The notes under the pieces are model-generated. The model worked only from the letters and a program-made list of their open reading frames with translations, did no database searches and had not been told where the DNA came from. From a virus: a DNA stretch of 43,856 bases. Of this stretch, positions 26,032-43,480 are shown in pieces (positions within the stretch are counted from its first letter, which is position 1; the number at the start of each line of letters is the position of its first letter). Location: IMG/VR virus record IMGVR_UViG_3300007345_000078, positions 1 to 43,856 of that record. One strand, 5' to 3'. The position numbers were made by a program, and so were the translations under genes.

Positions 26032-29000
26032 TTATTGGTTTTTATCATTTTTATTCATTCTTTCTAATAATCCTTTTAAAAAAGGAGTATACTCGAATGT
26101 TCCTAAATTAGGAGCAGACAGTGCATTGTACTGAGCAGCTAGATAATTAGCAGAATCTGTTTCTTGTATTTTACCCATCTGTTTAATACCTTCTTGAATA
26201 GACTTTCTTTTAGCTTCATCAAAAGACATTTCTAATTGTTTCTTATATTTTTCTAAATCTTGTTTTTGTTTAGTATTATATTGATTGCCTCTAAGATCCA
26301 TTTCTTTTTGGAGCTTATCGTAAGTCATTAATGTTTCATTTTCTAATCTAGAACCTGATTGAGCTAATGCTAAAAGATTAGAAGGATTAGCTCCGACTTT
26401 ATTTAAACTTTTTCTTAAACCTGATACTTGTCTTTTAACATTATTTATTGCTTGAGTAGGATCAAATTTAGGAACTTCTAAAGGAACAAAATCTGGTGTA
26501 TAATCTTTTTGTTTACTAAATAGTCCTGAACCTATATTATATAAAGGAGCAGCATATTTAGCAGCAAACTGAGGAAAAGATTCTTTATAATTAAAATCAA
26601 ACTTAGCATCTGATATATCGTTAGCATCTGGCATATCAGGATCTTTTTTCTCTTCTTCTTGTTCTGTACTTTTATCTTTAGGAGTTTCTTCTTCTGTAGG
26701 TTCTACAACAGCTAACGGATTAACATCTTCTTTTGTATCTACAACTTCAGTATTAAATACAGGATTTTCTGAATCTATTGCTCTTTCTAAATTTCTAGAT
26801 GCTTCTAATTCTGCTAATTTATCAGGAGTTATTTCTAATTGATTTCTTGTATTTTGTAATATCATTTGCTGTCTTGGGTCCATTTCTGCAAAAGCAATTT
26901 CTTCTTCACTTAAAGGACTTTGTGCTTCCATATCGTCCATTCTTGTATAAATAGGATCTGGAGTAGGAATGTTTTCTAATAAACTTCTTTGATAAGGAAC
27001 AGAAGAATCTTTAAATTTATCAGCAAATAATTCTTTTACATTCTCTTCTCCTCCATATTTATTTACAATTTCTTTATCTGCTAAAAGTTGTTGTAAAGAA
27101 TTGTAAGTAACACTTTTATTAATTGTAGTTCCATCTGGTTGAGCTATTTGTTTCATTAAAGTAAGCTTACCTCCGTCATCAAAAGTATTAGCAGAATATT
27201 GATTTAAACTTCCGCCTGTATTATACAAATGTCCACCCATAGCATTTTGACTGTTCTTTAAATCTTCAGCTGTCGGAGCTCCTTTGCTACCTGGCTTTCT
27301 CATACTTTCTCCTGAACCTGCAGCTATTCTTGCTCTTTTAGCATGTATGTTAGCCCAAAGACCCCCGCCTTTTCTATAAAGATTACCTCCATACTTAGCC
27401 ATATTTGGTAGTTCAATTTCTGGAGCAGTTTCTATTACAGAATCAGTTACTTCTCCCATTGTATTTTCTGCACCTTTTCCTACTTTACCACCTGCTATAG
27501 ATCCAGCAACTCCCATTGCTTGATTAGCTATATTAAATAAAGTACTTCCTTTTCCTCTATCTTGTTCTTTTGCTAAAGCGGCTTCATATTCTTCTATTGA
27601 ATATTTTTCTGGATTATTTATAATATCTTGATGAGCTGCTTCTCTTTCTTCGTATTTACTAGTAGTAAGAGCATCAACTCCTTGTCCTCCTAAATTAGTT
27701 AATGTAGAACCTGCAAATCCTAAAGCACCTGATCCTGCTCCTTTTCCTGCTTGTAAAGCCATATCTCCATAATCTATTCCTCTCCAATCAACACTACCAT
27801 CATCTGAAGTACGAGCATTTTCTGCTAAAGATCCTGTTACTCCTGAAAGAGCTCCTAATCCTGCTCCTACAGCTTGTCCTACAATAGGAATGTTTCCTAA
27901 TACACTGGCTCCTGTTCCTAAAAAATTAGAATATAAATCTAAAAATTTACCATACTTAGCTTGATTCGGTTGTACTTTATTTATGCGACCTCCGTAAGCA
28001 TGCATCTTACCACCACATCCATAACATAGTTTTCCTCCTTTACGCATTTGAGAACCTAAACCTTGCATAACATCAATACCTTGTCCTTGAAGACCTCCGT
28101 CTAACATACCTCCCATATTAAAAGCCTGATTCATTCCTTGCATAGGATTTATTCCAGCTTCTTGTCCAGACTGCATTAAGTTGCCTCCAAATTTATTAGC
28201 TTTTATTTTTCTACTTTGAAATAGTTTAGGACCATATCTTTTTTTACCAGCTCTTCTATCACCACTAGTATGATGACTCCACCATGTCCATTTATTTGAA
28301 GTATCAATTGGATATCTAGTTCCTCTTCTAGGGCCTTTGACTTTAACATTACTACTAGAATCTTTTACATTTCCTGTTGCATCGCCTCCTGTGCCATCTC
28401 CTCCTCCTGTACTGCTTCCATCACCACCGCCATCTGTTGTTCCTGAACCTCCTGTTCCATATGCAGGATCTCCACTAGTAGCAGCGGCTCCATAATTACT
28501 TAACATATGTTGACGAAGTTCTTGCATTACTCTGTCGTCTGCAAAACCTGCTTCTTCTGTAGAAGATAAATGCGGACTAAATTGGATACCGCCTATCATA
28601 GAATTTGCATCAAGACCTTTTGCTTGAGGACGAGAAACATTTTCTGTAGTAATTCCTGCAGGAGTTGGTTCAGGAGTACATGGGGGGCATCCTGGAGTAT
28701 CACACGGACAAGGATCAGCCATTCCCATAGCTCCTGTATTCATCATACCTGTATTAGCCATATTCATTCCCATAAAACCGCCTAGATTATATGAACGAGT
28801 AGTATAACCACCGTTACGCATCATACCTTCTTGTTGGCCCATAGCCATATCTTGCTGCTGTTGCATCATAGCCATTTCTTCAGGAGATGGTTGTCCTCCG
28901 CCTGCTTGTTGTTCAGCCATCATTTGTTGTTCCATCATAGCTTGCTCATCCATAGGAGCTTCTTGCATTTGGCCTCCCATAGCTGGATCGCCTTGAGGAC

Positions 29001-29544
29001 CGCCTTGAGGTTGTCCTTGTCCCATTAAAGCAGGAAGAGCGTTAGGATCTAACTCGGCTATTTCTTGTAGCTTTTCTTCTATTCGTGCTTGTTTGAAAGC
29101 TTCTTGTGCTTCCATAAGATTCATTAAATCTTTTTCATTAGCTGCCATTTCTATAGCATCTCCTTCTCTTTTAGATTTTTTACGACCTGCCATTTTACTA
29201 GCATCTGCAAAAGTTTTACCTACCATTTTAGGATTAAGATTAAAAGCTTCTGCTAATTCTTTATCTACTTTTAATGAATCAGAATAAATATAATTTTCAG
29301 CATCAAATTTAGTTTCTCCCTCTTCTACTAAATTCATTTGCCCTTCAGGATTCATTCCTTGTGGAATACCTCCTAAACCATTTTCTTCGTGACGACCTCC
29401 TTCATCAAACTCAGTTAACTGTTCCATAGGCATAGCTCCTCCAGCTGCGTACTTTTTTCCGCCATATTTCATGTTAGATAAAATATTATTTTGAACACTT
29501 GAGGGTAGTGCTCTAAATCCTGGATTATTAATTCCTTTTTTCAT
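26032..29544 (-). CDS. Virion structural protein with GG-motif repeats, 1170 aa
   Basis: The N-terminal ~110 residues contain EGGRHEENGLGGIPQGMNP, then NLVEEGETKF and YIYSDSL, a signature I associate with structural proteins of Bacteroidota phages. After it comes a Met/Gln/Gly-rich low-complexity stretch (about 170-250) and a cysteine cluster CPCDTPGCPPC (C279, C281, C286, C289). A second pair is CYGC (C507, C510). Short elements such as KYGGKKY, KFGGNLM, YGGRIN, KYGGNLY and MGGHLYN recur at least eight times between residues 26 and 790. The central part (about 535-620) has glycine/alanine-rich hydrophobic segments. The C-terminal third is acidic, then helical. It starts after a 39-base gap that carries a candidate promoter. 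Role in virion inferred. Confidence 0.8.
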   Translation of the reverse strand: MKKGINNPGFRALPSSVQNNILSNMKYGGKKYAAGGAMPMEQLTEFDEGGRHEENGLGGIPQGMNPEGQMNLVEEGETKFDAENYIYSDSLKVDKELAEAFNLNPKMVGKTFADASKMAGRKKSKREGDAIEMAANEKDLMNLMEAQEAFKQARIEEKLQEIAELDPNALPALMGQGQPQGGPQGDPAMGGQMQEAPMDEQAMMEQQMMAEQQAGGGQPSPEEMAMMQQQQDMAMGQQEGMMRNGGYTTRSYNLGGFMGMNMANTGMMNTGAMGMADPCPCDTPGCPPCTPEPTPAGITTENVSRPQAKGLDANSMIGGIQFSPHLSSTEEAGFADDRVMQELRQHMLSNYGAAATSGDPAYGTGGSGTTDGGGDGSSTGGGDGTGGDATGNVKDSSSNVKVKGPRRGTRYPIDTSNKWTWWSHHTSGDRRAGKKRYGPKLFQSRKIKANKFGGNLMQSGQEAGINPMQGMNQAFNMGGMLDGGLQGQGIDVMQGLGSQMRKGGKLCYGCGGKMHAYGGRINKVQPNQAKYGKFLDLYSNFLGTGASVLGNIPIVGQAVGAGLGALSGVTGSLAENARTSDDGSVDWRGIDYGDMALQAGKGAGSGALGFAGSTLTNLGGQGVDALTTSKYEEREAAHQDIINNPEKYSIEEYEAALAKEQDRGKGSTLFNIANQAMGVAGSIAGGKVGKGAENTMGEVTDSVIETAPEIELPNMAKYGGNLYRKGGGLWANIHAKRARIAAGSGESMRKPGSKGAPTAEDLKNSQNAMGGHLYNTGGSLNQYSANTFDDGGKLTLMKQIAQPDGTTINKSVTYNSLQQLLADKEIVNKYGGEENVKELFADKFKDSSVPYQRSLLENIPTPDPIYTRMDDMEAQSPLSEEEIAFAEMDPRQQMILQNTRNQLEITPDKLAELEASRNLERAIDSENPVFNTEVVDTKEDVNPLAVVEPTEEETPKDKSTEQEEEKKDPDMPDANDISDAKFDFNYKESFPQFAAKYAAPLYNIGSGLFSKQKDYTPDFVPLEVPKFDPTQAINNVKRQVSGLRKSLNKVGANPSNLLALAQSGSRLENETLMTYDKLQKEMDLRGNQYNTKQKQDLEKYKKQLEMSFDEAKRKSIQEGIKQMGKIQETDSANYLAAQYNALSAPNLGTFEYTPFLKGLLERMNKNDKNQ

Positions 29545-29583: not shown

Positions 29584-32500
29584 TTAAGCCATTCCTTCGC
29601 TATCATCAATATTATTAGTTTTATTTTCAGATATATTATTCAACATCCATATAATTTCTTCATCGCTAAAAGTATCTTGAAGCTGCTTCATAGGATTATA
29701 TCCTTGTTTATAACGATCTTTAGTTTTAAGTTTAAGTTTTTTTAATTTTTGATAATATAAATCAGAAGAAACTCCTTCAGTAAAAGGATCATATATTCCT
29801 TGTTCTTGTGCTAACTTTCTTATTGTATTTAATCTAGCCCTAGTTTCAGTATCTTCTGCTACATAATTTGAAAAATTTAAAAATTCTTCTTGTGCTTGTC
29901 TAAAAGCTTCTGGATCATTTTTAATCAAATCATCATAATATTGCTTATAATTAAAATATTCTCTACTGTCTCCTAATACATCTGCTTTTCTTTTATCTAT
30001 ATATTTACTATCTGATTTAGGTATAATTCTTTGTTCACCGTCTTCCCAACCTGGATAAAAATATACAGGCCTATCAGTAGAATGACTCAACTCATGAGTT
30101 GCTGTTCCAGTTTCAAAACCTTCAGGAAAAACTTCTATTTGTCCACTATCTGTATGAGATAATCCAGCAAGACCTCGTTCTTCTTGAGGAAGTATTTTTA
30201 AAGGAGGAATATTCTTTAAATTTTGCTCCCTACGTTTTCTTAAAATACTTGCTTGCATATCTCCTACACCTCCTTTAGGATAAGAACTTCTTGTCATTTC
30301 ATAATACTTAGGAGAATTATGATAATTTTTAAACCATTCATTTGCGTTAAAATAATTTTCATTTTCTTTTTTAACATCTTCTATATTAAAACCTGAATTA
30401 TTTTTTTCCCAAGTTTCGTATGAAACACATGCTTGAGAAGTTTCGTCATAAATTTGACCTGAAGGACAAGGAGAACTTCCTAAACTTCCTCCAGTTGCAT
30501 AAGGTCTATTTCTAAATCTTTTTAAAAATTCAGAAGGAAGTTCTTTTGAACTAGTGTAATTAGTAGAAATATTTTCTATTGGTTTAATATTAAGTCTTGA
30601 AATAGGCATGCTGTCAAATGCATCCATTTCTCTTTTTGCAGCATCTGTTGCTATATTTTGAAACATTTTATTATCACCCTTATATCTCATAGTAGCAGTT
30701 CCTGGATAAGTAGGGGAGTTTGGATCTACTTTACCTACAAAATCATAACGACCCCCACCAGGATTATCTGTTCTTGTAAGTTTAGTGTTATCTGCGCTAT
30801 AATCGCCTATATAGTATGCTGGTGTTTCAGAGTATTTTTTACCTATATAATCTGATACTTCTTGATTTAAATAAGGCCCTATAGTTTGAGCATGATTAGA
30901 ATTTCCAGGAAGACCGTATACAAATTTACCGTTAGTAAATACAGGACTGCCATCAGGTTTTTTCTTTCTTCGCCAATAACCTGTATCTGTATTTCCTCTT
31001 TGAATATTATTAAAATCATTAGGTATCCACTCTTTTTCTTCAAAACCATGTAGGACTTGAATATCTCCAGGTTGAGGAAGAACACCTGGTTTTTGCATTT
31101 CCATACCAAAATTCTTATATCGACTAGCAAAACTTTGATTTCCTGTAACAACAGGTATAGGCCCTCCAGGAATTCCTCCTTTAGGAGCCGCATTTTGTTC
31201 TGCTACAGAAGGACTTACTCCTACTTTTTGTCTTCCTGTTTTTGTATAAGGTTTATTAGGAATCCAATTGCCTTTTTTGTCTTGTATATAATAAGGAACT
31301 CTAGCTAAATTTTCTACTTCAGGTTCATCAGAATCTCCTGGAGTAGGAGATAAATTACAACTAGACCCTGTTATACATCTTGCTCCTCCTATACTATTTA
31401 AAAAATTTTTAAAAGGCGACCCTTGTTCCCATGTATACTTTCCTAAATTACGAATAGATCTTTCAGCTATTTGATTTTGAGCTCCTTTTGTTCTTTCTTC
31501 AGATAATTTTGCTAAATAATTTGCTTTTTCTGCTCTAGCAGCAGCGGCTTCAAAACTTTCATCATCTTGCTCATATATATCAGATACATGACTCATCATA
31601 CCACTAAAATCTCCTTCATAGGGAGTATTACTTACTTCGTATTTTCCTGTATCAAAATTGTATGTTTTTATATTATCTGTTTCTGGATCAACCATAAACT
31701 TCATAGGATCATCAGGACCTCCTAGTTTAAGTTTTCTACTAGGGTATATATTACCTCCATATTTCTTTTTATTTGCTCCAAACAATTGTCCTTGTCCAAA
31801 CATAGACCCTTGTCCAAACTGAGGAATAGCTGAATTTTTCATAATAGATTCAGACAGCATTTTTGTATAAGCTTCTTGTTGTTTTAACTCTTTTTTAGAA
31901 AAATTTTGAACATTAGAATTTATAAACTTTGTTTCTGGTGAACTTAAATTTGGAGGTATAGTATTTACTGATTCAGGTATATTTACAGCTAAAGGAGAAA
32001 TATCATTATCAGAATTTAATTGTGGATCATCTATATCAGCATTATAAGAGTTTCCTATTTTAGGCATTTCTGGAATAGGCCTACTAGAAGAAGTTGATTC
32101 AACTTCTGTTTTTTGTTGTTCTAAATCTGCTGCTAATTCTTGAGAATCTACTTCAAATTCATCTTGCCATCTTTCTTCATCAGGTTGTACATATTTTTTT
32201 TCATATTTTTTAGAAGCAGTTAATCTATCAGTAAATGTTTTTTGTTTTGGTATTTTACCAAATCCTGCATTAGCACTTGTTAATATAAAATTAGCATCTT
32301 CAATATTATCTATGTTATTAAAATCTACATAGTTCCCAAATCTTTTTTTATACCTATTGTACTTTTTAGTTAAATAAGGTAATTCTTTAGCTAATCTATT
32401 ATATAAAAATTTAACAGCAGCTTTTGCTTGTATATCAGGATCTGTTTCTAATAATTCAGGATTGTTTACTAAGTCAACTCCTAATTCTTCTCCTAATTTT

Positions 32501-32979
32501 TTATAAGCTCCTTTACCTGTTATTTGATTAGGTCCTCTTCCTCTATACCTATAACCATCTGTTCCTCCTTCATTTCCTGAAACATTTGCATAAACAAAAT
32601 TTCCAAGTGCTTGAGGATTTCTTAAATATTTACCACTTTTAGCTAATTCATTAGCATATTTGCTACCTTCACCTTCAGGAGCTCTTACTATTTTTCCTCT
32701 AGAATTTTTATAAGTCGAAAATACACTAAAAACTTCTGCAAGTCTGCCAGGAGTTTTGTAATACATATCTTCTGCTATTCCTTTAAAACCTCCTTCATTA
32801 ACAATAATTCCCATCATAGCAGCTTTAACATAATCATTAGTTATGCCATAATCTTCCATATATTTTATAATAAGATCTTCTTGAAGATCTTCTTTAGTTT
32901 TTTTAGGAGGGTCAGGAGTAACATTAGCTATTTGCTCATTTACTATTTCATCATCAAATATGTCTAGTAGATCTTTCAT
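29584..32979 (-). CDS. Virion cell-wall hydrolase: GH19 + CHAP/NlpC-like + HExxH peptidase
   Basis: I place the start at the ATG at 32979 (1131 aa), just after the upstream stop with an A-rich leader; an in-frame ATG at 33009 would add 10 residues and overlap the upstream gene by 23 bases. Numbering here uses the longer form. Residues about 45-270 match GH19 lysozyme/chitinase-like enzymes (NEGG with E72; GYRYRGRGPNQITGKGAY). Residues about 540-780 resemble a CHAP/NlpC cysteine peptidase: ARCITG (C545), PQPGDIQ (D649) and NSNHAQTIG (H706). Residues 972-976 are HELSH, followed by STD, a zinc-protease signature. GG motifs occur at KYGGNIY (417) and TGGSL, next to a small cysteine motif CPSG...ACV. 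Likely a tail or portal-associated lysin that opens peptidoglycan during DNA entry; inferred. Confidence 0.85.
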   Translation of the reverse strand: MKDLLDIFDDEIVNEQIANVTPDPPKKTKEDLQEDLIIKYMEDYGITNDYVKAAMMGIIVNEGGFKGIAEDMYYKTPGRLAEVFSVFSTYKNSRGKIVRAPEGEGSKYANELAKSGKYLRNPQALGNFVYANVSGNEGGTDGYRYRGRGPNQITGKGAYKKLGEELGVDLVNNPELLETDPDIQAKAAVKFLYNRLAKELPYLTKKYNRYKKRFGNYVDFNNIDNIEDANFILTSANAGFGKIPKQKTFTDRLTASKKYEKKYVQPDEERWQDEFEVDSQELAADLEQQKTEVESTSSSRPIPEMPKIGNSYNADIDDPQLNSDNDISPLAVNIPESVNTIPPNLSSPETKFINSNVQNFSKKELKQQEAYTKMLSESIMKNSAIPQFGQGSMFGQGQLFGANKKKYGGNIYPSRKLKLGGPDDPMKFMVDPETDNIKTYNFDTGKYEVSNTPYEGDFSGMMSHVSDIYEQDDESFEAAAARAEKANYLAKLSEERTKGAQNQIAERSIRNLGKYTWEQGSPFKNFLNSIGGARCITGSSCNLSPTPGDSDEPEVENLARVPYYIQDKKGNWIPNKPYTKTGRQKVGVSPSVAEQNAAPKGGIPGGPIPVVTGNQSFASRYKNFGMEMQKPGVLPQPGDIQVLHGFEEKEWIPNDFNNIQRGNTDTGYWRRKKKPDGSPVFTNGKFVYGLPGNSNHAQTIGPYLNQEVSDYIGKKYSETPAYYIGDYSADNTKLTRTDNPGGGRYDFVGKVDPNSPTYPGTATMRYKGDNKMFQNIATDAAKREMDAFDSMPISRLNIKPIENISTNYTSSKELPSEFLKRFRNRPYATGGSLGSSPCPSGQIYDETSQACVSYETWEKNNSGFNIEDVKKENENYFNANEWFKNYHNSPKYYEMTRSSYPKGGVGDMQASILRKRREQNLKNIPPLKILPQEERGLAGLSHTDSGQIEVFPEGFETGTATHELSHSTDRPVYFYPGWEDGEQRIIPKSDSKYIDKRKADVLGDSREYFNYKQYYDDLIKNDPEAFRQAQEEFLNFSNYVAEDTETRARLNTIRKLAQEQGIYDPFTEGVSSDLYYQKLKKLKLKTKDRYKQGYNPMKQLQDTFSDEEIIWMLNNISENKTNNIDDSEGMA

Positions 32980-32986
32980 AATTTTT

Positions 32987-35683
32987 TTAATCGTCGTTTG
33001 TTGTAGCATCTAATACTGCTTGTTCTCCTTTATTAATTTTACCTAACTTACTAGAACTTTTACTTAAATAATCAAAAAATTTTTTACCTTGTTTTAATGC
33101 TTGTCTTTTTCCGAATCCATATGTACCACTAAATTCATTTAACAAACTGTAATCAGGTTTCCATTTTGCAGCATCATATGCTTTTATATCACTAAAAAGT
33201 TTTTTAGAAAGGTTAAGCTCGTCTGTATTAGCAGGAGCTTTTGCTACTAGTTCTGCCATTTCATCAGTATATCCAGGAAGCTCCCAATATTTATCTGGAT
33301 TTTTTAGTACTGTTTTAAATAATTCTCTTTTTGCTGGATCTTGTATTTTATTCACATAAGATATCATTCTTGGATCATTAAAAGGAGCTATACTTCTACT
33401 TGAAGCTATTACATCTAAAGGATTGTCTTTTATAGTTCCAGTAAGTCTATTTTGTATATTTCCTACATTATATCGACTAGCTCTAGCATCACTTAAAATT
33501 AAATCTGTAACTTTATCAGAACCTGGTTTATATTTATCTATATCTTCTGCACTTGCTTTTTGATACCAAAGTCTATCTTTTGAAGAACCTGCTTGACCTG
33601 GTTTAGTGAATCTAGAATATTTTTGAGTAGTAAGTAAATCTTTAAATTTTGCTTCTCCTTTTAAAACTTGTCCCATTCCTGGTACAAAATCTCTAACTTG
33701 TGGAATTCTTCTTACTGCATTAACTCCTCCTGCAATATTTCCATAACCTGCTCTTAATATTTCTGATCCTACAGGAAGTGCAGATAATCCACTCATAGCT
33801 ACATTAAATGCTGCATCTCCAAAAGATCCTTTTCCTTGTTGATAATCTTTTATAGATTGTCTTGTCATAGAAGTAGGATCTGTAAATTGATCTACTCCAT
33901 AAATACCTCCTGCAACGTCAAGCAATTGCATAGGATTTAGCATATATTTAGAAAACTTTGGAGCTGTATTTGTTAATAAAGGTTGTTTTAATACTTGTTT
34001 AGCTGCTTGAACACTTTGTTTTTTTGCTAATTGTTTTAACCCTTGTTTAGCTCCTTGTCTAATTAAACTACCTGCTCCAAAACCATAAATCATTCCTGGT
34101 AAATTCCATATAGGACTATCTTGTACTACTCTTGTATTTTCTTGAAGCATTGCTTTTCTATATGCTTCTTCTTCAGCGTCAGTCATATAAACATCTCGAT
34201 TGCCATAATTATATAAATCTACAGGATCTCCAGTGAGTCTTTTTTGCATACCTGTTTGATCGTTAAAAATTACATTACCTTCGTCATCTTTATAAACATC
34301 TTCTGCAAAAATAGGATAAGATCCCATATGCCCTCTCCAAGCATCGCTTTTATCTAAATGAACTAAATGCCTTTTGTTTATATAATCTGTTAAATCTTTA
34401 TGAGCAACTTTTTGTTCTTTTTTATATCTTTTATCATAAAAATTAGGATCCTTCATTTCTCCTTCTACTCCTTCTAAAGTATAATTTAAATAAGGATCAT
34501 CTAAACTTTTAGTATCTACTACTCTAGATTGGCCTGCTTCTCCTAAACCTGACAATTTTATCAATTGTCCAGTAGCAGGATTAAAACCGTGGGTTCCTTT
34601 TAATAATGCTCTTTTAATTTGATCATTATATTTTTCATTAACATTTCCTGGAGATATTAAATTAAAATTAGCAATGCTGTTTATAAAATCAGAATCTTGA
34701 GCATATGAAAGAATCATATTAGGAGCCTCTTTATCACTTTCTATATTATAAAGTTTTTTCCTTTCTCCAGCTTCCATAGGACCTAACCATTCTCCTTTGC
34801 TCTTTAATTGCTTATCATATTCTTCTTGTCGTTGAGCTAAATGTTGAGGAGTTCCTATATAACTAGTATCATCGCCCCAAGCTAAAGCTTTTGCAGCTGA
34901 TAAAGAATTTTCATTTCCTTTAGTTTCTAAATCTATCCAATTATCTGCTCCTTGTTTTTTAGTATAATAATGAGGTATTCCAGATTCGTTATATGTTTTT
35001 TTATAATCCCAACCATATTGTCTAGTTAATTCATCTGATCTTGAAGGAATAGGAGCATTAACTGCTTTTTTTAATTCTAAAAAATTAGTGGTGCCTTCTT
35101 TTAATGGATCTTTAAATCCACCATTTACATATTTTCTAGAATTTCTAATATGGTTTTTTAAAGACTTAATAAATCCTCCTTCTTTAAAAGGTAAAGCAGT
35201 AGTGTCTTTGACAAATGTTTTTTCAGATGGATAGTCCCAAGTAGGAATAATAGGAGCCATTGCGCCTCCATTTTTAAAATTATATTTTATATTAAGCCTA
35301 GGATCTCTTTTTCTTTTATCTTTTGAAAAATTTACTGAAGCTCCTATATTAAAATTTCCTAGTTTTTTTGAAACTTGTCCTGTTAAGCTGCCTTTATAGT
35401 CAGGATTATTTTCTAGTGGTTTAATTCCTACAAGAGTCAAATCAATTCCTTTTCTAGGAAATCCTAATCCTGCTACTCCTAATAAATCATTACTTGGCAT
35501 TCTTTGTGCAAATGCATATTTACTAACTTTAGGAGTATAACTGTAAGGATAAACTCTAGCACTAGGATTTACATTAGACTTTTGCCAAGGATGGATTTTT
35601 AAGAGAGTATCTTTTGTCTTAGATCTTTTATAATCTTTAAAAGAACTAACAGGTAAATTATATTTAGGCGGAGTTCCTGGCAT
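32987..35683 (-). CDS. Virion-type protein, 898 aa, with beta-rich N-terminus and GG motifs
   Basis: The start ATG follows directly on the stop of the muzzle gene (TAAATG), a strong sign of coupled translation. The N-terminal ~65 residues are Pro/Tyr/Lys-rich. Residues about 79-137 show alternating beta-strand patterns with tight turns (GIDLTLVGIKPL, GSLTGQVSKKL, FNIGASVNF, LNIKYNF), rather like strands of small outer-membrane beta-barrels. Elements FKNGG, FKEGGF and YVNGGF follow, matching the motif of the next two genes. The region around 530-560 is glycine/lysine-rich and amphipathic (IYGFGAGSLIRQGAKQGLKQ), and about 600-670 is hydrophobic. I recognise no enzyme. A tail or ejection role is inferred from the neighbours only. 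Confidence 0.75.
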   Translation of the reverse strand: MPGTPPKYNLPVSSFKDYKRSKTKDTLLKIHPWQKSNVNPSARVYPYSYTPKVSKYAFAQRMPSNDLLGVAGLGFPRKGIDLTLVGIKPLENNPDYKGSLTGQVSKKLGNFNIGASVNFSKDKRKRDPRLNIKYNFKNGGAMAPIIPTWDYPSEKTFVKDTTALPFKEGGFIKSLKNHIRNSRKYVNGGFKDPLKEGTTNFLELKKAVNAPIPSRSDELTRQYGWDYKKTYNESGIPHYYTKKQGADNWIDLETKGNENSLSAAKALAWGDDTSYIGTPQHLAQRQEEYDKQLKSKGEWLGPMEAGERKKLYNIESDKEAPNMILSYAQDSDFINSIANFNLISPGNVNEKYNDQIKRALLKGTHGFNPATGQLIKLSGLGEAGQSRVVDTKSLDDPYLNYTLEGVEGEMKDPNFYDKRYKKEQKVAHKDLTDYINKRHLVHLDKSDAWRGHMGSYPIFAEDVYKDDEGNVIFNDQTGMQKRLTGDPVDLYNYGNRDVYMTDAEEEAYRKAMLQENTRVVQDSPIWNLPGMIYGFGAGSLIRQGAKQGLKQLAKKQSVQAAKQVLKQPLLTNTAPKFSKYMLNPMQLLDVAGGIYGVDQFTDPTSMTRQSIKDYQQGKGSFGDAAFNVAMSGLSALPVGSEILRAGYGNIAGGVNAVRRIPQVRDFVPGMGQVLKGEAKFKDLLTTQKYSRFTKPGQAGSSKDRLWYQKASAEDIDKYKPGSDKVTDLILSDARASRYNVGNIQNRLTGTIKDNPLDVIASSRSIAPFNDPRMISYVNKIQDPAKRELFKTVLKNPDKYWELPGYTDEMAELVAKAPANTDELNLSKKLFSDIKAYDAAKWKPDYSLLNEFSGTYGFGKRQALKQGKKFFDYLSKSSSKLGKINKGEQAVLDATTNDD

Positions 35684-38600
35684 TTAAAATATTTGTGCGT
35701 CATAATAAGAAACTAATCTATTCATAATTAATTCTTTATTATTATCGTTGTCGAAATATAAAGTTAATAAAAAATGAGTAGATCTAAAACGTCCTTTTTT
35801 ACTAGTAGAATTATTATCTCTAGGAAGTTTAATTCTCCATTTATCAAAACGTCTTTTTATTCTTCCTGCACTGTAAGGAATTACTCCAGAATCTTGTGTC
35901 TCTGTAGCAATTTTAAATCCTGTAATAGTTTTAGTTCTGTCTATTACTTTATTATCGTTTCTAACTATACTATTAAATTCTAAAAATCTAAGAACTTTAT
36001 TTATATCTGCTTTAGGATTAATAACTAAAGTTAAATTACATCCTACTTTATTATCATAAAACTCTCCCCAATTTCCTATGTTATGAACATAAAAATCATT
36101 TTCTTTATTTACAAAAGGATTGCTGCTTAATAAAGTATTTCCATTATTAATCCACATTTTAGGATTAATTGATAATCTTGTAGAAAATTGATTAGCTATT
36201 TCATCAAATACTATTGTATTAATGTCTCCTTTTTCTGAATCAGTAGTTGATAAAAAAGTAAAAATAATTTCGTCATTTATTTCATCTATTCCAATATGAG
36301 ATCCTTTTAATAAAATAGGATTATCTCCTCCATCCTGTTTTCTTAAAAATACATCTTCTCCTAAAAATTGTAAGTAAGAATGCATGCCTTTTAATTCTGA
36401 TAAAGGACTAGTTTGTAGACCTCCTTTACCTTGACCTAATTGATATATTTTTCTGTGAATAGCATCAAAGAAATAAATAGCATTATTAGTTGTAGCTATT
36501 GCCCATTGATGTATTGAACCTACTTCTTTAGAATAATACTGATGTTTACCCCAACCTTTTGCTGTACCTAATTCTGTAGGTACACCATCATCTGTTGTAG
36601 TAATTGCTTCTCTATTAATACTGTAAACTCCTGTTCCTTGATCTTGTAAAAAATAAACATTGTCTTTAAAGTTTATAATTTTATTTATAGGACCGTGATC
36701 ATCTACATCATAATAATCATTGATAGCAAATTTTGTCCAAGAATCTATAGCCTCTCCGTTGACTTTTACTGAAGATAAATAAGCTCTTACATCATTTGTT
36801 AAAGATAAATCTATAACACTATTTGGCTGTACAAAAAATTGTACTTCTTTATCTAATTGAGAAAAAACAGGATTATAACTATAAGTTTTATATTTATCTA
36901 AACCTGGGTCAAATTTTCCATAATTAGAAAAAGTATTATTATCTTCTTGTCTATAATACACACTTTCTAGTCCTCCAGATGTTTCTCCTTCAAATTGAAA
37001 TTTAATTCCTCTAGTAGTATTAGCACTATTATTTAGATTTAAATTAATAGTACTTTCTGTTACCATTAAATCTGTTCTTGTAAAAACATTATCATAATCA
37101 TCACTATTTGATTCATAAAATTTACTATTAAATTCTATCATTGCTTTTTGTAGACTAAACATAGATATAAAAATATCTCCTCCATAAACTATAGGAGAAT
37201 AATCTAAATTTCCTGACGTTGTTTTAATTATAGGAGAAGCAGGAATAAAACTATTTGATTCTAAAGCATTAGTTGAAAATCCTCCATATATTTCATTCTT
37301 AGGTATAACAAGATCTACAATAGGAATTGCTTCGTTTTTATTAATAGTAGTAAGTCCCCCTGAACCATCAGGAACAGGTAATGGTGCTATTTGAGGATTA
37401 CTAGGAACAGGTGTATGAATAGTATTTCCTGCTATTTGAAAATAATCTCTCCAAGGTTTATCTGTTCCTGGAGTAGTGTAACTAGTATTACTGTTTAAAG
37501 GGTCTAAAGAAAAAGTATCTAATAATACAGTTAAATTAGTTCCTGCTCTAGCTACTCCTCCCGATCTATTTGAAAGACTATTTCTTGGATTATTTAATCC
37601 CCAATCTTGAGCAACAATAGGATTATCTGCTCTAGTACCTATATAAGCAAAATAATTTCTAACATAAGTATCTCCTCTACCTAAATCAGGAGATTTACAA
37701 TTTGAATAATTGGCAGTGAGCACGTCTCTTCTAGGCATTTGAGGCGTTGTATTAATAGTAAAATTTGCTCTTTGATTATCTTGAGGAAACAGTATAACTT
37801 TAGTATCAAGAAAAACATTAGTACTGTCTCTCATATCAAAGTATGTAGACCTTTCAATTTTTCTAATATTTTCAATACTATTAAAAGTTATAGGCCCTAC
37901 TCGTCTAAATTTAAAACCTCGATCCCATATATCTAAATTATTATTATTTCCTAAATTTTGAGCTGCAGGTCCAGTACCTGATTGAGTAGTTTCTTCTCTA
38001 TAATCTCCTGCACTAGGAGGAGAAGGAGAACCTCCTACTGTAGCAGTATAACATCCTGTCATTAAAAGTGAAGCATTGTTAGCAGCATTAAGTGCTAAAT
38101 CAGGAGTGTTATTAAAATTGTAAGATATTTCAGGAGAATAAAAAGCTAGATATTGAGACTTAATAGTTGTATTAACAATTGCGTCTGCACTTCCTGGAGT
38201 TTGAGGAAAAATATTATTATAATCTGTATAAGGATTGGCAGATAGATCATTATCTTGATCGTCTATAAAATATTTAAGACTATCATTTTGAATATCTGGA
38301 CTAGTTTGTGGGCTAGTATCTACTATTACACCTCCGTTTCCTTGTTGATATTTCCAAACTACAGGAGTATTAAATTGATGTAAAACTTTTTCATCTTCAT
38401 TAACTCTAAAATCATAATCTGGATTACTAGGAGTATCTCCCATTCTAATATGAGCATAAGGACTTACAATACCTTGAGATAATCTTCTTTTATCAGTATT
38501 TTCTCTATCTACTCTAACTATTTGAAAACCTTCTATTTTATCTAATAAACTTGGACAAGAATTAAAATCTATATTAAATTTTATCCCTAAATTTAAACCT

Positions 38601-40285
38601 ACTGTAATAGGTTTTCCTGTTTTACCTATAGTACCTGTTGAATCATCGTAAACAGTGCTTAATGGCCAATAAGGAGATCCGCCAGTATTATTTACTCCAT
38701 TTGCTTCTGATATATCTGGAAACTTAATATCTCCAATATATTCTACATAAGTAGCTTCTCCTTTTAATGTATAAAATATAATACCAAATCTATAAGTTTC
38801 TCCTCTTTTATATCCTCGTAGTAAACTAGAAACTATAGGAGAAGCTGCGTTAGGTATACTTCCATCTGGATTAGGACGAACTCCGTATCCATCATTTAAA
38901 TCATGGTTGTCTATTCCGTAATGAATATTTGCAGCAACATTATGAAATTTAGATTGATACTCTACATCTACAGTCATAGGTTCTAAATGGAAAGAATAAG
39001 AAATATTATCTCCTGTAATTGGAGTAGGATTTCCTCCTCCTAAAGTACTTCCATCTATTTGATATTTAAATTGATTTGCAGGAAGCTGCCAATCTTTATC
39101 CCAATGTTTATCTTTATTAAATTCTGCATTAAATGCTTTGTCTAAAATAGTTCCTGGAGTAGCAACAGATGAATTATTATATCTTTTAGTCTTTGATTCA
39201 AAAGTTTCTCCAGGAGCTAATAAATCATTTATATTAATTGTAGAAGACTTTATGTTAGCTCCTATTAGATAATTATCTTTTTGAGTAACACTTTTAAAAG
39301 TTTTAAATGCAAAGTTCTTACTAGCAAAAGTAAATAATTCTATATCAAATATTGAATCTTCTGTTCCAGTATAAGTTATTGTTGTAATATCTGAAATAAT
39401 ATCTTTAGTTTCAATTGAGGAAGCTACTGGAGTTGCAATTGAACTTTCATAATATAAACTAAAAAATTCTATTCTTTCAAATAGTCCTACGTAAGCACTA
39501 GTATCTACTAATAGTTTTATAGATTTAAATGAATTTATTTTTTCAGGCTCTCCTACATATTCTGCTACAGTATTATATTCAGAAGCAGAAACTATATGAA
39601 TCATATTACTTGGAGGAGATATTAAAGTTTCTTTTCCGTCAGATGTAAGTAATCTATAAGCTATTTGGTACATTCCTGAATTTAATTCTCCACCTCCGCT
39701 TATATTATCTACAATTGGTTGAGTAAATTCTACATTTGGATATATATCAATATTATCAACATTAAAAGTATTTAAATTTGGATCTGCTACATTTATAGTT
39801 CTAAATATATTATTGTAATCTGTCCAATAAATTCTTTGTATACTTTCATTTTCATAACGACCTAATGCTTCTATTGGCCATTCTTTCTTAAAAAATAAAT
39901 TAGGATTATAATATAATAATGTAGCAGCTCCTCCTGTTATTTCACGAGTTGCGGGATTATACTCTACTTGATAAATCCATCCTTTTGTTCCACTATTATC
40001 TGCTACAAATAAAATAATTTTATCTCTAATTGTGCCGTAACCAATAGCTTCAGGAACATCGGCACTCCAAGAAATAGGAGTATTTGGAGGATCATTATCA
40101 AATGTTCCTGATGTAGGAATAGTAAAAGATAATTTATTTCCTTTTATATTTGTAAAGGCTCCTTGAGATTCTCCTACAGTAGTAGTTATTCTAACATCTA
40201 AAGCATCGATATACATATTCTGCTTAATCGTATCATAAGCAGTATCTTTATCCATTCCGCCATATGTATTAACGTGTCCTTCCAT
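35684..40285 (-). CDS. Tail stabilization / muzzle protein (P22 gp10-like), 1533 aa
   Basis: The N-terminus (NTYGGMDKDTAYDTIKQNMY, then ALDVRITTTVGESQGAFTNI) and the segment SGGGELNSGMYQIAYRLLT near residue 195 fit the large stabilization proteins of crAss-like phages, which are distantly related to P22 gp10 and form the muzzle below the connector rings in the phicrAss001 structure. Composition is beta-rich with many Asn, Ser, Thr and Tyr, as expected for repeated beta-propeller or barrel domains, and there is no membrane segment. It follows the gp4-like protein by 9 bases, the conserved order in this phage order. Its role is to close the DNA exit channel and probably to carry receptor-binding or cargo-release parts. 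I cannot assign internal domain borders reliably. Confidence 0.85.
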   Translation of the reverse strand: MEGHVNTYGGMDKDTAYDTIKQNMYIDALDVRITTTVGESQGAFTNIKGNKLSFTIPTSGTFDNDPPNTPISWSADVPEAIGYGTIRDKIILFVADNSGTKGWIYQVEYNPATREITGGAATLLYYNPNLFFKKEWPIEALGRYENESIQRIYWTDYNNIFRTINVADPNLNTFNVDNIDIYPNVEFTQPIVDNISGGGELNSGMYQIAYRLLTSDGKETLISPPSNMIHIVSASEYNTVAEYVGEPEKINSFKSIKLLVDTSAYVGLFERIEFFSLYYESSIATPVASSIETKDIISDITTITYTGTEDSIFDIELFTFASKNFAFKTFKSVTQKDNYLIGANIKSSTININDLLAPGETFESKTKRYNNSSVATPGTILDKAFNAEFNKDKHWDKDWQLPANQFKYQIDGSTLGGGNPTPITGDNISYSFHLEPMTVDVEYQSKFHNVAANIHYGIDNHDLNDGYGVRPNPDGSIPNAASPIVSSLLRGYKRGETYRFGIIFYTLKGEATYVEYIGDIKFPDISEANGVNNTGGSPYWPLSTVYDDSTGTIGKTGKPITVGLNLGIKFNIDFNSCPSLLDKIEGFQIVRVDRENTDKRRLSQGIVSPYAHIRMGDTPSNPDYDFRVNEDEKVLHQFNTPVVWKYQQGNGGVIVDTSPQTSPDIQNDSLKYFIDDQDNDLSANPYTDYNNIFPQTPGSADAIVNTTIKSQYLAFYSPEISYNFNNTPDLALNAANNASLLMTGCYTATVGGSPSPPSAGDYREETTQSGTGPAAQNLGNNNNLDIWDRGFKFRRVGPITFNSIENIRKIERSTYFDMRDSTNVFLDTKVILFPQDNQRANFTINTTPQMPRRDVLTANYSNCKSPDLGRGDTYVRNYFAYIGTRADNPIVAQDWGLNNPRNSLSNRSGGVARAGTNLTVLLDTFSLDPLNSNTSYTTPGTDKPWRDYFQIAGNTIHTPVPSNPQIAPLPVPDGSGGLTTINKNEAIPIVDLVIPKNEIYGGFSTNALESNSFIPASPIIKTTSGNLDYSPIVYGGDIFISMFSLQKAMIEFNSKFYESNSDDYDNVFTRTDLMVTESTINLNLNNSANTTRGIKFQFEGETSGGLESVYYRQEDNNTFSNYGKFDPGLDKYKTYSYNPVFSQLDKEVQFFVQPNSVIDLSLTNDVRAYLSSVKVNGEAIDSWTKFAINDYYDVDDHGPINKIINFKDNVYFLQDQGTGVYSINREAITTTDDGVPTELGTAKGWGKHQYYSKEVGSIHQWAIATTNNAIYFFDAIHRKIYQLGQGKGGLQTSPLSELKGMHSYLQFLGEDVFLRKQDGGDNPILLKGSHIGIDEINDEIIFTFLSTTDSEKGDINTIVFDEIANQFSTRLSINPKMWINNGNTLLSSNPFVNKENDFYVHNIGNWGEFYDNKVGCNLTLVINPKADINKVLRFLEFNSIVRNDNKVIDRTKTITGFKIATETQDSGVIPYSAGRIKRRFDKWRIKLPRDNNSTSKKGRFRSTHFLLTLYFDNDNNKELIMNRLVSYYDAQIF

Positions 40286-40294
40286 GAATTAGTT

Positions 40295-41110
40295 TTAAGA
40301 TGTTGCTGGATTAACGCCTGCGCTTACTATAGATATATTAGTATTAGATCTAGCTCCTGATACGGGTCTAAAATTACGTTGTTCAGGCAATTGCATATTA
40401 GCAAAAAAGCTTGCGTGCGCTTGTACGTCTGGTATAGTTCTAAGAGTTGCGTTTTGCATACTTTCTGCTTCATCTACACCGTTCCATTGTTTAGCATGAT
40501 TTACTGCTTGTGCAAAATACCAATCTCTATCTCTTTCTATAACTTGATATACATCAGGACGAAGATGCCCTTGCATCCACAGCTTTTTAGCTATTTTTAA
40601 CGCTATATAATGAGAAGCTGCTTCTAACCATTGCTGCTCTGCAGGCACTGTAGGATATCCATGTTCATCTGTAGGAATAGCATTGTAACTCATTGCTATA
40701 AAACCATTGTTAAAAGATGTGAAAATGAATCCTCCTTCAACAGTATATGTTTGATCTGATTCAGAAGTGTAATCTCTTCTATCTATGTGATATCTTTTGT
40801 GGAAATAATCTGTTGCCCATCGCATGGGAAACATACGTCCTTTTCCGCATTCAGCTTCTTCTATATTGTTAACGGAAGTTAAATGTGATACTTGTCCTAT
40901 TTTATGAAGATCAAAAGGTAATTCTGCTCTACCGTCACATATTTTAATATAAGCAATATTATTTTCTAAAGTCATAGGCACATTAGTGTGGGCCATAAAT
41001 TCAGCCAACCATTCTACACCTTCTTCTTCATGAACGTCGTAATTAAATCCAAAGTCTCTAATTACTTTATCTAAAATTGCTTTATATGAAACAGTTTTAC
41101 CAGCAAACAT
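40295..41110 (-). CDS. Head-tail connector (tail tubular, P22 gp4-like) protein, 271 aa
   Basis: The N-terminal helices (residues about 6-40: KAILDKVIRDFGFNYDV..GVEWLAEFM), the strand-rich core with ELPFDLHKIGQVSHL, and FIFTSFNNGFIAMSYNAIPT match the crAss-like tail tubular family, related to P22 gp4. Such proteins form a ring between portal and muzzle. The C-terminal ~40 residues (RPVSGARSNTN...) look like a flexible arm. Its start overlaps the stop of the 94-aa gene by one base (TAATG). Context is decisive: IHF-like, small protein, this gene, muzzle. Crassvirales heads have several ring proteins, so which ring this forms is not certain. Confidence 0.75.
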   Translation of the reverse strand: MFAGKTVSYKAILDKVIRDFGFNYDVHEEEGVEWLAEFMAHTNVPMTLENNIAYIKICDGRAELPFDLHKIGQVSHLTSVNNIEEAECGKGRMFPMRWATDYFHKRYHIDRRDYTSESDQTYTVEGGFIFTSFNNGFIAMSYNAIPTDEHGYPTVPAEQQWLEAASHYIALKIAKKLWMQGHLRPDVYQVIERDRDWYFAQAVNHAKQWNGVDEAESMQNATLRTIPDVQAHASFFANMQLPEQRNFRPVSGARSNTNISIVSAGVNPATS

Positions 41111-41394: not shown

Positions 41395-41908
41395 AATAAA
41401 AAACTTTTCTGTTTGGGTCTTTAACTACCTTAGCAATTAATCTTGAATATTGCCTAGAAGGTTTAAAGACATAAAAACTTTTATACTTTAAAACATTAGT
41501 TAATTTATCCCAATAATGCTCATAAAACTCACCGCTGCTATGATCATTTTGATGATAAATAACTTTCTTATTTTTTAATTCAACTATCTCTTCTTTAGAT
41601 AAACCAGGATGTTTAGCTTTCCAAAAATCCCAAGTACTTTTCCAATCTACTTTTAAACTTTTAGATCTATTACCATTTTTATCAAAGAAGTTTAATTTTT
41701 TACTCCTTATTCTTAATTTACCTACTTTATTTATTTTTAGTTCTAGGCCTGTTTCCACAATAGCTTTACTAAAAGCAGTAAGTAATTCTTTTATAAAAGC
41801 ACTATATAAAGATTTACTAATTATTTCTTCTTTAGCGTTTTCTTTATAATGCTTATAAAACTCATTCCTTTTTACATTACCTTTTGTTTTACCTTCTCCT
41901 CTTATCAT
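41387..41908 (-). CDS. IHF/HU-like protein of the crAss-like structural module, 173 aa
   Basis: Residues about 30-85 show the HU/IHF pattern: a helical part (SLYSAFIKELLTAFSKAIVE) followed by TGLELKINKVGKLRIRSKK, which corresponds to the conserved beta segment of HU/IHF subunits. A C-terminal extension of about 85 residues, rich in Lys, Trp and Tyr, replaces the usual short end; it is much longer than a ~95-aa HU protein. Genes annotated as IHF subunits next to the tail tubular and stabilization genes are a hallmark of crAss-like phages, and that is the case here. The start overlaps the preceding stop (ATGA). Whether it binds packaged DNA or has become a ring protein cannot be told from sequence. 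Confidence 0.75.
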   Translation of the reverse strand: MIRGEGKTKGNVKRNEFYKHYKENAKEEIISKSLYSAFIKELLTAFSKAIVETGLELKINKVGKLRIRSKKLNFFDKNGNRSKSLKVDWKSTWDFWKAKHPGLSKEEIVELKNKKVIYHQNDHSSGEFYEHYWDKLTNVLKYKSFYVFKPSRQYSRLIAKVVKDPNRKVFYYG

Positions 41909-42639
41909 TGTTGAGGTTGTTGTTGTTGTTGTGCAGGAGCTGCTTGTCTCATACCTTGAGTTCTAGCATCTTGTGCATCATTCATATCGTCAAATGGTGC
42001 TGCGCTTTTTTGCATCAACTGCTGTAAAATAATAGGTTTAATATATGTCCACATCCATTGATTAATTGGATATGGTTTATTAGTAGACCAACATGTAGTT
42101 CCATCTACGCAATCTACATAATTAAGCAAACTAGTAGGATCTTCAAATATTCCTCGTAAAGTCATATACTTAATGTTTTTAACATTAGGGTCTTTACTTA
42201 TAACATACATATACTCATCATATAAAAATGTATAAATAGCTGTTCTAGTAGTTCTGCCGTGTCCTATAAAAGGAACTCTAGAATAATCTATTACGACAAA
42301 TCTAGGCTTAGTTATATCAGCAGGTCCTACAGCTGCTATACCTTTTTTAAAATATAATTCTATTGTATTAGGAATTTTCTTTTTAGTTCTAAGAACTTTA
42401 CATGCATCTGGCACTGTGATGCAACAATCTATAGGATTAACTAGTTCTAATTCTAAACAATTAAGATTTTGAAGTACATATGGATCTATTCGACGATTTT
42501 TATTATATTCGTTTCTTAGCCATAAGGACCTTTGTTCATTAATTAAATCTGTATAGAAATCATAAGAATACGAAGATTCTATGGAGTTAATCGCAAGTGA
42601 TTCATCTATTTGTGCCTGAAGATCTTCTAAAGTTAGCAT
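41905..42639 (-). CDS. Connector/ring-type structural protein, 244 aa
   Basis: This protein has a clear family look for crAss-like structural modules: an N-terminal helix (LEDLQAQIDESL), then YDFYTDLINEQRSLWLRNEYN, the segment NCLELELVNPIDCC with VPDACKVLR, and FEDPTSLLNYVD. The C-terminus is Gln/Ala-rich (QQQQQPQQ), probably flexible. No enzyme motif is visible. It lies between lysis genes and the IHF-like gene, in the region where crAss-like phages encode the rings joining portal and muzzle. I therefore infer a ring or head-completion protein but cannot say which. The stop is TGA and overlaps the IHF-like start (ATGA). A possible host-type -7 box lies just before the start. Confidence 0.7.
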   Translation of the reverse strand: MLTLEDLQAQIDESLAINSIESSYSYDFYTDLINEQRSLWLRNEYNKNRRIDPYVLQNLNCLELELVNPIDCCITVPDACKVLRTKKKIPNTIELYFKKGIAAVGPADITKPRFVVIDYSRVPFIGHGRTTRTAIYTFLYDEYMYVISKDPNVKNIKYMTLRGIFEDPTSLLNYVDCVDGTTCWSTNKPYPINQWMWTYIKPIILQQLMQKSAAPFDDMNDAQDARTQGMRQAAPAQQQQQPQQ

Positions 42640-42669: not shown

Positions 42670-42801
42670 TTATCTGCCTTGTCCTCTATATTTCTTTTTA
42701 TAGTTCTTAGACGTTTTTAGATTAGAAGTCTTTGATTTAGCGTGAATTAAAGGTCTTTTAATTTTAGCTGTTTGTTTTTGATTATCTATTAATCTAGCCA
42801 T
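42670..42801 (-). CDS. Very small basic protein, 43 aa
   Basis: An ATG at 42801 overlaps the end of the amidase gene by 8 bases (AATGGCTAG) and opens a 43-codon frame ending in TAA. The product starts MARLIDNQKQTAKIKRP and ends SKNYKKKYRGQGR. It is very basic (many Lys and Arg, almost no acidic residues) and has no hydrophobic segment. The overlap, the full use of an otherwise empty gap, and the protein-like composition support a real gene. Basic peptides of this kind can bind nucleic acid or act as minor virion proteins. Function unknown. Confidence 0.6.
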   Translation of the reverse strand: MARLIDNQKQTAKIKRPLIHAKSKTSNLKTSKNYKKKYRGQGR

Positions 42802-43480
42802 TTTCTAATTGTTGTATCATTTCAAAGTGCATCTTAGCTACCCTGTCTCTTCCTGATTCACTCATAAGTATCTCGTGACACTCTCTATAATTAGTCATAA
42901 AAAAGTTTTCTGATAATATAGCAGGCATAGTAGTATTTACAAGAACATAAAAATTAGATTCCTTATCAGGATCTCCGTCTCCCATTGATGTTCTCATTTT
43001 TCTTTCAGGAAACTCGGCTTTAGCTTTTTCATAAAGAACAGTGGCTATTTCATCAGATTTAGTTTTTCCTGGAGATGTAAAAACTTCCCAACCATTTGCT
43101 GACTCATCACTGAATCCGTTTGCATGTATGCTTACATATATACAAGGTTTTTCAGAAGACTTAGCTAATCTATTAGCAGTATCTACTCTTTCTTTTAAGC
43201 TAATATCTTTAGGAGTAGCTACTAGATTAATATAATCAATATTGTTAGCTTCACACATCTTAACTAGTCTGTCGACAATAGCTCTATTGAATTCTCCTTC
43301 GTATAAAACCTCACCGTCTGGCCATACAGGAGATCTTTTACCAGGTGTTTGATATACTCCACTTATCATACCACCGTGACCATTGTCTAATATCCATAAG
43401 TATTTAGACTCTTCAGTATGTGGTTTAATAGACATATCAAACTCAGTATTGCAATTTGGACAAGTTATAATTTTTTCCAT
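42794..43480 (-). CDS. N-acetylmuramoyl-L-alanine amidase (Amidase_3), endolysin
   Basis: The zinc-binding residues of the Amidase_3 family are in place: DNGHGG (H35), EGEFN (E63) and SIHANG (H119), with the catalytic glutamate in ILSENFF (E191). The enzyme cleaves the bond between N-acetylmuramic acid and the peptide stem of peptidoglycan. The N-terminus adds a short CPNCNTEFD segment (C7, C10), half of a zinc-ribbon pattern and not needed for catalysis. There is no signal peptide, so release to the periplasm would depend on the holin-like protein encoded just upstream. At 228 residues it is a normal single-domain phage endolysin. The stop is TAG. Confidence 0.92.
   Translation of the reverse strand: MEKIITCPNCNTEFDMSIKPHTEESKYLWILDNGHGGMISGVYQTPGKRSPVWPDGEVLYEGEFNRAIVDRLVKMCEANNIDYINLVATPKDISLKERVDTANRLAKSSEKPCIYVSIHANGFSDESANGWEVFTSPGKTKSDEIATVLYEKAKAEFPERKMRTSMGDGDPDKESNFYVLVNTTMPAILSENFFMTNYRECHEILMSESGRDRVAKMHFEMIQQLENG

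Follow-up and report, generated by a model that had tools for sequence, protein, structure and literature searches.

Crassviruses are very abundant phages of Bacteroidota, and how they pass through the peptidoglycan of the host is an open question. The locus described here bears on it, and raises the question of whether several hydrolytic enzymes are combined in one protein that enters the host with the phage. The stretch of DNA analysed (the window) comes from a virus record and is 43,856 bases long, and in it a first-pass annotation had claimed three hydrolase sites within a single protein, referred to here as the three-site protein. The window belongs to the genome of a crAss-like phage, with Pfam matches to the muzzle protein, rings 1 and 2, and cargo protein 1, and its host belongs to the Bacteroidota. 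The three-site gene is placed between the muzzle and cargo protein 1 genes, after an ORF of 898 aa, in the following context:

42794..43480 (-): stand-alone Amidase_3 (PF01520, E=3.6e-24), likely the lysis endolysin
41905-42639: ring 2, from Pfam
40295-41110: ring 1, from Pfam
35684..40285 (-): crassvirus muzzle protein (Pfam PF25731, E=6.6e-141)
32987..35683 (-): 898-aa ORF between muzzle and the three-site gene, no function assigned
29584..33009 (-): whole ORF of the three-site protein, 1141 aa from the first ATG
26032..29544 (-): crassvirus cargo protein 1 (PF25725, E=1.9e-26)

The amidase that had been reported in addition to the three-site protein is thus present. In crAss001, DAC15, phi14:2, and the bajarodcaudo virus, cargo protein 1 comes directly after the muzzle gene, and none of the cultured crassviruses inspected (crAss001, DAC15, and phi14:2) has a gene between the two, which indicates that the three-site gene is accessory rather than core. 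The crAss_CARG1 domain (PF25725) is absent from the three-site protein in Pfam searches and present in the next gene. We also considered Gly-Gly motifs as a cargo-targeting signal; x-Gly-Gly motifs (e.g., KYGG) are enriched in the cargo protein 1 of the window (15, compared with 7.1 in shuffles), and Gly-Gly motifs lie above shuffles in cargo protein 1 and the muzzle but not in the three-site protein, and this candidate was rejected.

Two further observations concern neighboring proteins. The 898-aa ORF seems to be modular, as its homologue in L036 (L036:4098-7670; L-numbers denote viral loci) contains a degenerate B-type Cys domain, CIGAVC, which the window copy lacks. In addition, a HEAFH zinc motif is located at residue 655 of a giant window protein (7939-17472, minus strand) downstream of the cargo proteins, and it is also found in the giant protein of L078, L079, L084, L093, L094, L096, L097, L104, and L107. 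This recurrence suggests a second, predicted zincin in the RNA-polymerase-associated cargo of crassviruses.

The sites and domains of the three-site protein, with residues numbered in the 1141-aa form, are as follows (all on the minus strand):

32392..32883 (-): GH19 glycoside hydrolase domain, residues 43-206, from Pfam, PHROG, and PDB matches
32794-32796 (-): catalytic Glu72, from alignment with phage GH19 enzymes
32770-32772 (-): catalytic Glu80, from the same alignment
32524..32556 (-): GH19 signature GYRYRGRGPNQ, residues 152-162
31753..31818 (-): conserved linker FGQGSMFGQGQLFGANKKKYGG, residues 398-419, recognisable in relatives headed by GH19 or GH73
30508..31659 (-): swapped Cys module of type A, residues about 451-834, catalysis putative
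31375-31377 (-): C545
31063-31065 (-): D649
30892-30894 (-): H706
30427..30468 (-): conserved two-cysteine loop C848-C861 (CPSGQIYDETSQAC), which in close relatives immediately precedes the zincin
29587..30426 (-): predicted zincin-like metallopeptidase domain, residues 862-1141, from alignments and hhalign to phi14:2 cargo protein 1
30082..30096 (-): zinc-binding HELSH motif, residues 972-976; Asp979 follows at the third position after it
29845..29847 (-): Glu1055, probable third zinc ligand, within YVAEDTETRARLNTIR

A second ATG at position 32979 corresponds to Met11 and gives a form of 1131 aa. Translation probably starts there, because the L002 orthologue begins at this residue (MKDIL) and a start at 33009 overlaps the upstream ORF. 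C545, D649, H706, and HELSH at 972-976 are all present as first described, but their numbers fit only the 1141-aa form and not a protein that starts at 32979.

The GH19 signature noticed at residues 152-162 was borne out by the profile searches. The domain matches Pfam PF00182 above its cut-off (E=2.7e-9, 37.6 bits vs 25.5), phrog_181 (PHROG 181, named endolysin; E=4.4e-25), and endolysins in the PDB, of which the best is 9ms6 (E=3.4e-19). Glu72, Glu80, and YRGRG are intact in alignments with phage GH19 enzymes including phi14:2 g077, and the 8-residue gap between the two Glu is also found in phi14:2 g077 and FLC6. Membership in the GH19 family and the integrity of the catalytic residues are confirmed computationally, and enzymatic activity is predicted. 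The best matches among phage records are domains in giant proteins of jumbo phages, at ~36-38% identity.

HELSH is the sole HExxH motif in the three-site protein, and the region surrounding it (residues 862-1141) has relatives in ten viral loci. In the near relatives, HELSH, Asp979, and the motif T-E-x-R-A-R-L-N-x-I-R are all invariant, while in the far relatives (L038, L039, L050, L051, and phi14:2 cargo protein 1) HExxH and the Glu in a similar motif persist and the remainder diverges, down to ~20% identity. The combination of HExxH (972-976) with a third-ligand Glu (Glu1055) is that of the gluzincin type. Searches of Pfam, NCBIfam, and PDB sequences returned no match to this domain, PDB sequence searches with the zincin and Cys-module profiles gave chance matches only, and no zincin relatives were found in bacterial genomes; AlphaFold models from seven sequences were of low confidence (mean pLDDT 47.6). 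The hhalign comparison with phi14:2 cargo protein 1, which is annotated from MS/MS virion proteomics, was significant (probability 89%, E=2.5e-6). The phi14:2 protein (L020:13776-15557) contains two HExxH motifs, HEFTH and HEFIH, of which only the second lies in a region with a significant match to the window zincin profile. The zinc motif of the first-pass annotation holds up, and the prediction of a zincin metallopeptidase is well supported by its signature. The three-site protein combines at least two distinct predicted enzyme domains, GH19 by profile and the zincin by signature.

We compared 80 loci retrieved with cargo protein 1. In the closer kin of the window, muzzle and cargo protein 1 are separated by one or two large ORFs, whereas most of the more distant readable loci have none there. 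Across relatives, GH19, GH73, GH24, Amidase_2, LysM, ART, and zincin modules are found at this position. For example, GH19 is present in L040, GH73 glucosaminidase in L031, L032, L036, and L038, HExxH/zincin in L038, L039, and L050, GH73 with ART-PolyVal in L037, and ART, LysM, GH24, and GH73 together in L065, while in L012 a single protein of ~2100 aa carries GH24, a zincin, Amidase_2, and another HExxH. The same kinds of enzymes are also joined to cargo protein 1 itself: GH19 is fused directly to it in L052/L054, where it is 49.8% identical to the window GH19 over 227 aa, and a tail lysozyme is fused to it in the bajarodcaudo virus. No description of an enzyme locus between muzzle and cargo protein 1 was found in the literature searched, in which subscription journals were sparsely covered.

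The ADP-ribosyltransferase (ART-PolyVal) stands beside peptidoglycan hydrolases in the ORF after muzzle at L037:4032-9083 and L065:4349-8146. Eleven loci (L053, L055, L057, L060, L061, L063, L073, L086, L100, L101, and L103) have a muzzle or cargo-1 frame that is fragmented under table 11, a pattern that stop codon reassignment in those phages would produce.

Taken together, it is probable that the three-site protein is a mosaic, cargo-type polyvalent entry protein of a crAss-like phage, which is packaged together with cargo protein 1 and is ejected when the phage infects. We infer its location in the virion from gene context and by analogy, and ejection appears most likely given the gene position, the GH19 fusion in L052, and the phi14:2 proteomics. 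In phi-crAss001, cargo proteins are kept in the capsid and tail and are modeled as being ejected before the DNA; peptidoglycan, hydrolases, and proteases are nowhere mentioned in its structural atlas (PMC10172136). The three-site protein would be packed in the particle alongside cargo protein 1 and then ejected, and its GH19 domain would open a way for the ejection channel by cleaving glycan strands in the peptidoglycan of the host. Protein would be the target of the C-terminal zincin: most likely it would process the three-site protein or a further cargo polypeptide, and it might also act on a protein of the host envelope. The middle Cys module would be an exchangeable domain with putative catalysis, distantly related to papain-like-looking domains of sister phages.

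A special case of this packaged entry protein, and compatible with it, is that the zincin acts as a self-processing (maturation) protease and the polyprotein is cut into GH19 and other fragments around ejection. Zincins are repeatedly found either between other enzyme modules or on their C-terminal side, and phage P1 DdrB, which has such a domain, is processed before packaging (PMC5512222). When the window protein was compared with its nearest relative (L002) in steps of 50 residues, identity was 48-82% over residues 51-300, mostly 10-32% over residues 451-850, and 80-92% from residue 851 to the end. The Cys region was therefore replaced as a module, and the zincin was retained while the module adjoining it changed, which agrees with self-processing. 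However, the virion RNA polymerase of N4, with the same domain, is packaged unprocessed (PMC5512222), and no cleavage site was identified in the three-site protein. Self-processing is a tentative reading, with the balance somewhat against it, and the polyvalent-protein precedent makes processing of the phage's own polypeptide as likely a role for the zincin as attack on a host protein (PMC5512222).

Whether all three sites are active, with a CHAP/NlpC-like cysteine hydrolase (C545/H706) joined to GH19 and a zinc protease within a single entry protein, depends on the Cys module. Two types of this module occur at the same place. Type A (window, L031, and L036) has C-[IM]-x-G-[ST]-S, and type B (L002, L032, L040, and the degenerate domain carried by the 898-aa ORF homologue of L036) has C-[QI]-G-x-x-C in a papain-like order of motifs, PYTC-x11-G followed by QxGD and a YHN-type His. 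By profile comparison the two types are distantly related (hhalign E=0.0035 when run locally, against 0.025 or worse for unrelated alignments run in the same way; E=7e-5 in global mode). In the three type A homologues, which share 28-40% identity, C545, G648, and H706 are invariant. These observations favor an active site, and H706 is aligned opposite the type B His. However, the type B Cys is opposite Lys589, with C545 upstream of that position, and D649, in a "GD" turn, is replaced by Gln in L036, so that C545/H706 is only a candidate active site; invariance of two given residues in three sequences also carries little weight. No CHAP or NlpC profile was matched at E<=1 in Pfam or NCBIfam, either by the three-site protein or in two sister records. 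Of the three sites originally proposed, GH19 and HELSH stand, and the Cys/His residues exist as a candidate site. We regard it as unlikely that all three are active.

AlphaFold on the Cys region (three sequences) gave a mean pLDDT of 31.7, which is low confidence. Searches of the phage collection by tblastn with residues 221-1141, or with the Cys region alone, gave no match, and viral scans with the Cys-module alignments found no loci beyond the known related set. DUF2272 (in L077) was considered as a relative of type B from "KAG" and "xxGD", which are suggestive by eye, and was rejected at an hhalign E of 0.37; CBM_14 and other sub-threshold Pfam matches were treated as chance.

A broader version of this idea, in which a clade of crAss-like phages maintains a site between muzzle and cargo-1 that exchanges peptidoglycan hydrolases, cysteine hydrolases, zincins, and ARTs to suit the host envelope, three active enzymes of the window phage work sequentially at entry, and C545 is a papain-like nucleophile that has moved, is decidedly improbable. 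A second endolysin acting at lysis rather than entry is very improbable: GH19 is indeed a stand-alone endolysin in phi14:2 (g077) and PHROG 181 carries that name, but the three-site protein has 1131-1141 aa with extra modules, has its gene in the block of virion genes, after muzzle and before cargo protein 1, and has GH19 relatives fused to cargo protein 1 in L052/L054, and the stand-alone amidase can serve lysis.

The packaged entry protein can be compared with several known systems. The GH19 endolysins 9ms6 and 4ok7 in the PDB and phi14:2 g077 have the signature and the catalytic Glu pair in common with the window domain, but they are stand-alone lysis enzymes of ~190-220 aa, whereas the window GH19 is part of a large protein. 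The GH19 domains of Pseudomonas phage EL, Klebsiella phage Miami, and Burkholderia phage FLC6 likewise lie within proteins of ~2000 aa or more, in phages whose virion architecture differs from that of the window phage.

Crassvirus cargo protein 1, known as gp45 in phi-crAss001 (PMC10172136) and with a counterpart in phi14:2, is encoded next to the three-site gene. The cargo protein 1 of phi14:2 carries a zincin homologous to that of the window, and that of L052/L054 includes the GH19 that is encoded by a separate gene in the window. Unlike cargo protein 1, the three-site protein is without crAss_CARG1 and is absent from the cultured crassviruses inspected. An enzyme locus that swaps modules beside cargo protein 1, and a zincin in the MS-confirmed phi14:2 cargo, provide named, testable domains.

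The first-pass annotation had recognized neither the crAss-like identity of the phage, nor the neighboring cargo protein 1, nor the module swap. The combination that it described as an unusual entry tool is supported for GH19 and the zincin, but a mix of lysozyme with zincin-like metallopeptidase domains is already known from phage polyvalent proteins (Iyer et al. 2017, PMC5512222). The three-site protein differs from these in that GH19 replaces lysozyme, in its swapped Cys module, and in its gene position between muzzle and cargo 1. In both, several enzyme domains are joined in one large polypeptide, and ART and lysozyme modules of polyvalent proteins also occur in relatives of the three-site protein. 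The polyvalent metallopeptidases have, by their described pattern, HExxH and a later Glu like the window zincin, and the Asp three residues after HExxH is shared by one widespread phage-type set and the window zincin with its near relatives (PMC5512222). The three-site protein is thus probably an elaborated form of a type of virus entry protein that is already known.
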